Position numbers and translations under genes: made by a program
Notes under the pieces: model-generated
The model's database searches: none
What the model saw: the letters and a program-made list of their open reading frames with translations, nothing else
What the model was told of the DNA's origin: nothing
DNA from: Rhododendron vialii
Lineage: Eukaryota; Streptophyta; Magnoliopsida; Ericales; Ericaceae
Direction: 5' to 3'
Length of the DNA stretch: 64,000 bases
Assembly (NCBI RefSeq): GCF_030253575.1
Contig: NC_080568.1
Span: 2,187,501 to 2,251,500 of the forward strand
Shown here: one piece after another, positions 56,560-57,793 of the stretch
Position numbering within the stretch: the stretch's first letter is position 1
Layout of the letters: each line of letters begins with the position of its first letter

Positions 56560-56694
56560 ACTTCACAAACACAACTCCTCTCCCCCCAAACATAACCACA
56601 CCCTAAAATTACTCACATTCTTCCCCACACCACCACCACCACCGCCACCAAACTCTAGCTGCCATCGCCACCATAGCCCCACCATCACCATAGT

Positions 56695-56778
56695 CTGTGG
56701 TGATGCAACCAGCTGTCACCAGAGGTGGAGGATCGGCTGTTCACGACAAAGGAGGGCGAGTTGATCGTGAAGGCCCAC
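56695..56778 (+). pseudogene. Captured R2R3-MYB fragment, left arm (decayed)
   Basis: The same 27-codon stretch as in the right arm, but with an in-frame TGA (56701-56703) and several changes: [18 protein letters not shown] against [18 protein letters not shown] in the right arm. It ends exactly at the CACTA-like terminus. Confidence 0.8.
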
Positions 56779-57490
56779 CACTTCAGAAAATCAATATGTA
56801 CCAACGTTTTTCTACCAACGGCTCGAAAAGCATTAGAATAGGAGGTCTATGCAAGAACACTTTTTTTAGCTGCCGCTAGAATGGTGCTTTCCCAACGGTC
56901 CAAGCAAAAGCGCTGAAATAGGCTAACTACTTCTAGTGGCCCAAAAAAAGCGTTGGAATTGACCGAACATTTACCAACGGCCTAAGAAAGGCGTTGGAAT
57001 AGACCCCCATTTACCAGCGTCCAAGAAAAGTGCTGGAATAGACCCCCCCATTTTCCAGAGCCCAGGAGCCCTGGAATAGACCCAAAGAAACAACTGATCG
57101 AGCAATATCTATCCTCGACTATTAAAATAGTTTGTTTTATTGAGATCTGCTAAATAATCATATTGAAGATTGTTAAAAAATATATAATATAATATTATTA
57201 GATATTGCTCGATTAATTGTTTTTTTTGTCTATTCCAGCACTTTTTTTGGGCGCCGGTAAATGAGAATCTATTCTAGCACTTTTCTTGGACGCCAGTAAA
57301 TGGGGGGTCTATTCCAGTGCTTTTCTTGGGCCATTGGTAAATATCCGGTCAATTCCAGCGCTTTTTTTGGACCGCTGCAAAATGGTCGCCTTATCTGGCA
57401 AAAAGTGTTGATATAGACCTCTTATTGTAGCGCTTTTTTGAGCCGTTGGTAGAAAAAGTACTAGTACATACCGATTTTTCTTGTAGTGAC

Positions 57491-57571
57491 GTGGGCCTTC
57501 ACGATCAACTCGTCCTCCTCCGTCGTGAACGGCCGGTGCTCCACCTCCGGTGACAGCTGGTTGCACCACCG
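57491..57571 (-). pseudogene. Captured R2R3-MYB fragment, right arm (intact frame)
   Basis: It translates without stops as [12 protein letters not shown]...[13 protein letters not shown], the end of MYB repeat R2, the linker and the first helix of R3. [15 protein letters not shown] is the signature of the MYB44/70/73/77 group (subgroup 22). Only 27 codons are present, joined upstream to unrelated His/Pro-rich sequence, so it is a gene fragment, not a MYB gene. Confidence 0.85.
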
Positions 57572-57793
57572 TTTGCGGTGGTGATGGTGAGGCGGCAGCG
57601 GCTAGGGTTTGGTGGTGGTGGTGGTGGTGGTGGTGGTGTGGGAGTGTTTTGGGGAAGGAGGTGAGTAATTTGTTTTGGGGCTATATATCCTTCCAAATGC
57701 AACAGTAAGATAGACAGCGAGTGAGAACTACTAATATTTATCGGGTAGTAGTATGTGGTGTGACTTTGTTTTGGGGTGTGTGTTTCTTGCATT

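Follow-up and report, generated by a model that had tools for sequence, protein, structure and literature searches.

What kinds of described element come closest to a plant transposon that folds back on itself with a fragment of a host gene in its stem? In Medicago, the Mutator-like MuTAnT elements target TA microsatellites; their description gives GGGG/CCCC ends, long terminal inverted repeats (TIRs), the occurrence of foldbacks and the frequent loss of part of a TIR (PMC4486113). Other microsatellite-targeting elements have also been ascribed to Mutator-like transposons (PMC5907723 and PMC8449440). Gene fragments captured by transposons can serve as reservoirs of siRNAs, according to PMC13317346, and gap filling together with template switching has been proposed for Pack-TIR elements in animals (PMC8277862). 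More generally, inverted gene fragments have been proposed as one of the materials from which new MIRNA and siRNA genes are made; how such fragments first form is difficult to make out once a locus is old.

Here we describe a locus from Rhododendron vialii, within a stretch of 64,000 nucleotides that was analysed as a whole (the window, whose positions are used throughout). An initial annotation had read it as a foldback with two inverted arms, each holding a MYB fragment beside a CACTA-like terminus. Arms, fragment and terminus are all there; the reading was incomplete in that the outer arms are the TIRs of a third repeat family, called X in the following. From the outside in, each arm consists of an X TIR, a piece of a MYB gene and the end of a CACTA element. 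Our preferred reading is that the locus is probably a composite, mirrored transposon relic, in which an X element with a captured MYB piece and a nested CACTA was mirrored by repair and is now probably immobile. Genome searches covered the window's own assembly (532.6 Mb, 13 contigs), the sole plant genome compared.

Results

Extent and surroundings of the foldback

By self-alignment and a shuffle test, the inverted arms comprise 56584-57111 and 57199-57680, about 528 and 482 bp; the 550-590 bp initially assigned to them were too wide at the outer edges. That the arms are inverted copies of each other is borne out by a gapped self-alignment of 56625-57111 with 57199-57636, in which 365 of 424 aligned positions are identical (86%), with a further 77 gap columns. 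For their outermost part (56584-56690 and 57579-57680) the score is 98.9, whereas 300 shuffles reach 74.2 at most. Beyond the arm ends, inverted similarity lies within the shuffle range (its scores being reached by 83 and 157 of 300 shuffles), and arms out to 56423 and 57799, as found by a loose alignment, were rejected because shuffles score equally well. The features of the locus are collected in Table 1.

Table 1. Features of the mirrored locus, in window positions
Feature	Position	Strand	Remarks
Left X terminal inverted repeat	56479..56681	+	X matches elsewhere, inverted pairs, terminus alignment
Link between left X and MYB	56682-56697		
Left MYB R2/R3 piece, 27 codons, decayed, stop at codon 2	56698..56778	+	
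Left CACTA-family end, 333 bp, ~40-bp subterminal repeats	56779..57111	+	
Unpaired 87-nt spacer, single-copy inner part of right CACTA end	57112..57198	-	
Right copy of the same CACTA end	57199..57488	-	Terminus CACTACAAGAAAAA at 57488-57475
Right MYB piece, frame intact	57491..57571	-	
Link between right MYB and X	57572-57590		
Inner part of the right X terminal inverted repeat	57591..57680	-	X similarity 57591-57671, pairing to 57680

Several other repeats were seen in the window. A 27-bp tandem repeat (2.1 copies, 57825-57881) lies just beyond the right arm; also to the right of the foldback, 57973-58121 has an inverted copy at 17743-17898 (76%) and is possibly a MITE, and 58699-58845 is a short self-inverted, MITE-like stretch of 147 bp. 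Positions 39486-46319 and 51373-55530 form diverged, shuffled duplicate blocks of 80.7-92.8% identity, which include two similar open frames (40436-41155 and 53745-54563) that, by their sequence, are putative ZIP/IRT metal transporters.

The outer arms belong to a probably Mutator-like family

The outer arms are the TIRs of family X (GGGGCCGGTTC...). On the left, the terminus GGGTCGGTTCTACC is preceded by CATATATAT and followed by a CCACC-rich subterminal part; within the family, termini read GGGGCCGGTTCTACCCACACAA or near it in an alignment of 9 copies, some of which have no intact end. With the outer left arm as query, X was found at 14 other places (16 matches), including several inverted pairs, and a second query, the X TIR of locus L066, gave at least 41 matches with 40 of 121 candidates scored. 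Inverted pairs span about 0.55-1.3 kb. In 18 X copies the number of aligned positions in the inverted arms ranges from 44 to 378, the arms with the top value (L105) extending into flanking sequence; by the same measure the window scores 414, because its mirror includes the MYB piece and the CACTA end. In one locus (L057), X has other foldback repeats next to it or around it, and several stretches there, of up to about 800 bp, are self-inverted.

To which superfamily does X belong? At the family level it has long TIRs with GGGG/CCCC distal ends. A motif search located 26 termini in 15 loci, and 18 of these are TA-rich on the outside as judged by eye, those with no TA flank being the left ends of L070, L103 and L109 and the right ends of L061, L071, L103, L106 and L109. 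In two X copies that lie outside (TA)n, the 9-bp flanks agree at 7 of 9 positions by eye, in L109 at the expected edge and in L103 only after a shift of the edge by 2 bp. The superfamily is therefore likely rather than proven, and X is probably a Mutator-like family, mostly flanked by TA. None of 10 open frames from seven other X copies matched a Pfam family above cut-off (one frame had two weak hits, at E 0.01 and 0.039), so that no common carriage of genes by X is claimed.

In the window, the left X end is present (GGG) and complete from 56479; the right end is missing, its TIR being truncated at 57680, and the outer ~105 bp of the left TIR have no counterpart on the right. Inwards, X similarity extends to 56681, about 17 bp short of the MYB edge.

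The same CACTA end occurs twice

The CACTA terminus indeed lies beside the MYB piece, touching it directly on the left (at 56779, where it has decayed to CACTTCAG) and standing 2 bp apart on the right. What had been missed is that the two inner halves represent one and the same end of a ~1.8-kb CACTA family, as alignment shows; this family is matched at no fewer than 39 other places (at least 85 matches, counted by hand); 26 of these loci were read. Counted from the terminus, colinearity with the relatives holds for 377 bp in the right half and for 333 bp in the left one, and the halves meet tail to tail at about 57111/57112, with no clear microhomology by eye. Five relatives (L003, L004, L005, L007, L008) cover the spacer and then run on past the junction into the CACTA interior.

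L003 and L008, which measure 1819 and 1756 bp, are complete non-autonomous CACTAs and have 3-bp target-site duplications (GTT/GTT and TCG/TCG), and the best inverted match between their own two ends is 29 and 26 bp, respectively. Since the ends of complete relatives share only this much, the doubled end is abnormal and the product of a rearrangement. A long-TIR CACTA MITE at the centre was rejected, because the ends of these two relatives are unlike. The family shows a terminus, a 3-bp target-site duplication and ~40-bp subterminal repeats, of which the window copy has the terminus and the repeats; where a CACTA should have two different ends, the window holds the same end twice, and the other end is gone. 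By these features the inner halves are judged to be derived from a CACTA, not an intact CACTA.

Doubled CACTA ends may not be unique, since three of the 26 relatives (L036, L040, L053) have arm matches in both orientations, the other 23 in one. Self-inverted stretches of 42 to about 366 bp were seen, inside or outside the CACTA, in the loci of 6 of the 26 (L004, L008, L036, L037, L049, L053); the 42-bp self-inverted pieces of L036 and L053 are, with L040, perhaps smaller mirrored ends of the same kind.

The MYB piece is a putative capture and has changed unevenly

Both arms hold the same 81-bp piece of an R2R3-MYB gene in opposite orientation; the right copy is frame-intact, and the left one has a stop and several changes, all as initially described. 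The clearest evidence for its identity is 91% DNA identity over 81 bp to L010, an open MYB frame; L011 matches over 82-85 bp at 87-88%, and L012 is a further MYB gene copy elsewhere in the genome. Solved MYB domains are matched with a whole-sequence E value of 1.7e-7 (0.0012-0.016 for the best single stretches shown), and Pfam MYB models match the 27 residues weakly (E 0.0052 and 0.019, below the curated cut-offs). A protein search gave 20 MYB matches besides the window's two copies (82 of 82 candidates scored). Like the initial annotation, we take the piece to be presumably of subgroup 22 (MYB44).

The search for a donor in the same genome, proposed in the initial annotation, turned up MYB relatives, the closest at 91%, and neither an identical donor nor any gene closer than that. 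A second copy of the mirrored element was not found either; this is weak evidence, because such genome searches miss weak or repetitive matches. With the right outer arm and MYB together as query, the matches were the query itself, the left arm and three MYB genes, all three of the latter starting at the same base; this search gave no X copy, although inner X similarity exists by another search. Neither X nor CACTA was found within ~1.5 kb at any of the 20 other MYB loci (loci of ~3 kb, six query stretches, E 1e-4). The first 56 codons of an L010-type gene are absent beside the MYB piece, and the window contains no 3' MYB half. The G+C content of the right piece is 65%, versus 38% for the window. 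A host-gene fragment between TIRs marks Pack-TYPE elements, and here 81 bp of MYB lie between X TIRs; on this evidence the piece is a putative Pack-type capture. A simple CACTA insertion into a MYB exon, already doubted at the outset, is rejected, as both pieces are the same half, inverted, and the window lacks the other one.

All nine polarised differences between the MYB copies fall on the left arm. At each of the 9 differing sites, between 4 and 6 of the six MYB genes compared have the right base, whereas none has the left base, except for one gene at one site; 7 of the 9 left-arm changes are C-to-T or G-to-A by eye. In the CACTA part, 17 changes are assigned to the right, 16 to the left and 11 are ambiguous with 26 relatives (19, 16 and 9 with the closest 18). 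Comparison of 9:0 in MYB with left 16 and right 17 in CACTA gives a Fisher p of 0.006, or 0.014 with adjacent changes merged to 7 events, for a bias noticed post hoc on 81 bp and with slightly different thresholds in the two counts. In the X part, 9 changes fall to the right and 8 to the left, 5 are ambiguous and 2 sites have no data; this polarity is unreliable, a CCA microsatellite being misaligned. At three MYB sites the arms share a state found in none of the six MYB genes, and at a fourth they share one that differs from L010 and L011; conversion of the right piece by either gene after mirroring is therefore unlikely.

Predicted folding and pairing with MYB genes

In line with the long hairpin initially proposed, a transcript of either strand is predicted to fold into a hairpin of very high stability whose stem includes the MYB pieces. 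The minimum free energy of 56584-57680 is -656 (plus strand) and -646 (minus strand) versus -317±6 kcal/mol in 24 plus-strand shuffles, and the lowest value among 42 segments of equal length is -377, in one that overlaps the element. If transcribed, either strand would yield an imperfect hairpin of ~1.1 kb. At a penalty of at most 4, right-arm 21-mers (57471-57600, n=110) pair with L010 in 66 cases, with L011 in 51 and with L012 in 18, and with the other genes L018, L014 and L013 in 11, 7 and 0, respectively; some pair with L011 without mismatch. For left-arm 21-mers (n=111) the corresponding counts are 20 (L010), 19 (L011), 9 (L012), 10 (L018), 0 (L014) and 1 (L013). The penalty is a simple position-weighted in-house rule, applied without a background control. 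The locus combines a stable foldback with similarity to a possible target, as is looked for in MIRNA and inverted-repeat siRNA loci; such predicted pairing is a capacity, not an activity. At gathering thresholds, Rfam returned no family in 50000-64000.

Discussion

How did the mirror arise? The hairpin appears to be of ordinary transposon origin, since its outer arms are the TIRs of a probably Mutator-like element and the MYB piece is enclosed in that element. In the scenario we favour, a non-autonomous X element would have captured the 81-bp, GC-rich MYB piece, and a non-autonomous CACTA would have come to lie at the inner edge of this piece, inside X. A break within the CACTA may then have been repaired by copying one arm, comprising X TIR, MYB and CACTA end, to the opposite side, the two CACTA stubs being joined at unequal points (333 and 377 bp), which would have left the 87-nt spacer. 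The product would have had the order X TIR - MYB - CACTA end // CACTA end - MYB - X TIR. Both arms presumably decayed afterwards, and with the outer end of the right TIR lost, the element is probably no longer mobile. The order of events, the mechanism of repair, the immobility and the present silence of the locus are what we infer from this layout, not what we observed. The divergence between the arms is 0.111±0.035 in MYB, 0.152±0.040 and 0.155±0.027 in CACTA and 0.101±0.034 in the inner part of X; these values are similar within error across the layers (0.101 to 0.155), as one duplication event would give. Only MYB and CACTA need mirroring, because the X TIRs were already inverted repeats, and for the same reason the similar divergence of X is no proof of a single event. 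Capture by a probably Mutator-like element, nesting of a CACTA and mirroring are layers that can still be read in this locus, the junction to within a base or two.

The mirror could possibly have been made by foldback template switching at a replication fork, or by sister chromatid fusion, instead of repair from the opposite TIR, and we hold either route to be the less favoured one. The unequal stubs, the short unique spacer and the junction with no clear microhomology fit any of these routes; an X inverted repeat at both ends offers a shorter path through opposite-arm repair, and the observations do not decide.

What can be said about the present role of the mirrored relic? To judge from its sequence, it is most likely silent or inert, or gives rise to the siRNAs usual for transposons; that it regulates MYB genes is conceivable but unlikely. 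If both arms had decayed neutrally, a 9:0 split in MYB would not be expected; constraint, lower methylation of the MYB stretch or chance could account for it. That the locus is an active natural hairpin, transcribed and with its stem cut by Dicer-like enzymes, whose siRNAs or young miRNA act on MYB44-like genes, appears improbable to us. Such an activity would be in keeping with the predicted stability of the fold relative to shuffled sequence, with the pairing of right-arm 21-mers to L010 and L011 and with the confinement of MYB changes to the left arm next to an even spread in CACTA. Against it stand the post hoc nature of the bias and its p of 0.014 at 7 events, a pairing score that has no background control and falls to 18, 11, 7 and 0 of 110 for L012, L018, L014 and L013, a stem made up mostly of transposon sequence, which 24-nt silencing usually targets, and Rfam thresholds unmet throughout the region searched.

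It is also improbable that the arms descend from a resident MYB gene with promoter and leader, which took up a CACTA in its R3 repeat before its 5' half was duplicated in inverted orientation. The outer arm does look like a leader, with CCACC repeats and AAACCCTAGCC, and a resident gene would sit well with a MYB piece for which no gene closer than 91% was found. However, the leader-like sequence is the X TIR, present in X copies elsewhere; X similarity reaches almost to the MYB edge, which makes this part transposon and not MYB leader, and both the initial codons of an L010-type gene and the 3' MYB half are lacking. Least probable of all is the reading as a newly arisen, expressed hairpin gene in which the right MYB piece stays unchanged because antisense small RNAs from it tune MYB44-type genes, and the left one decays as a passenger; if true, a silencer of transcription factors would have been assembled by two nested DNA transposons in the course of a single repair event.

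Regarded as a mirrored relic, the locus illustrates concretely how transposon repair may lead to a hairpin directed at a gene, and its parts can be set against the systems described. X resembles MuTAnT in its G-rich ends, long TIRs, foldbacks, (TA)n flanks and partial loss of TIRs, and differs from it in TIR sequence (mask GGGGTTTGCTAGAACA for MuTAnT and GGGGCCGGTTCTACC for X; PMC4486113). As in Pack-MULEs and Pack-CACTAs, a gene fragment lies between the TIRs of a non-autonomous element (PMC8903248 and PMC13317346); unlike in the Pack-TYPE elements described there, the fragment is doubled and mirrored, with nested CACTA ends between its copies, and no second copy was found in our searches. 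As in the origin of MIRNA genes by inverted duplication (Model 1 in PMC10004981), the locus contains a fragment of a possible target gene in two opposed copies able to pair with each other; unlike in that model, most of its stem is transposon sequence. MULEs with multiple long TIRs likewise show atypical TIR duplication and, in some cases, gene fragments, but their extra TIRs are tandem or solo (PMC3310237), while in the window the captured sequence itself is mirrored. Among titles and abstract openings of the open-licence literature, we found no description of such an element with a nested CACTA whose doubled end has a gene fragment mirrored around it. Each layer of the locus is separately of a known kind, and their combination is, as far as searched, new.
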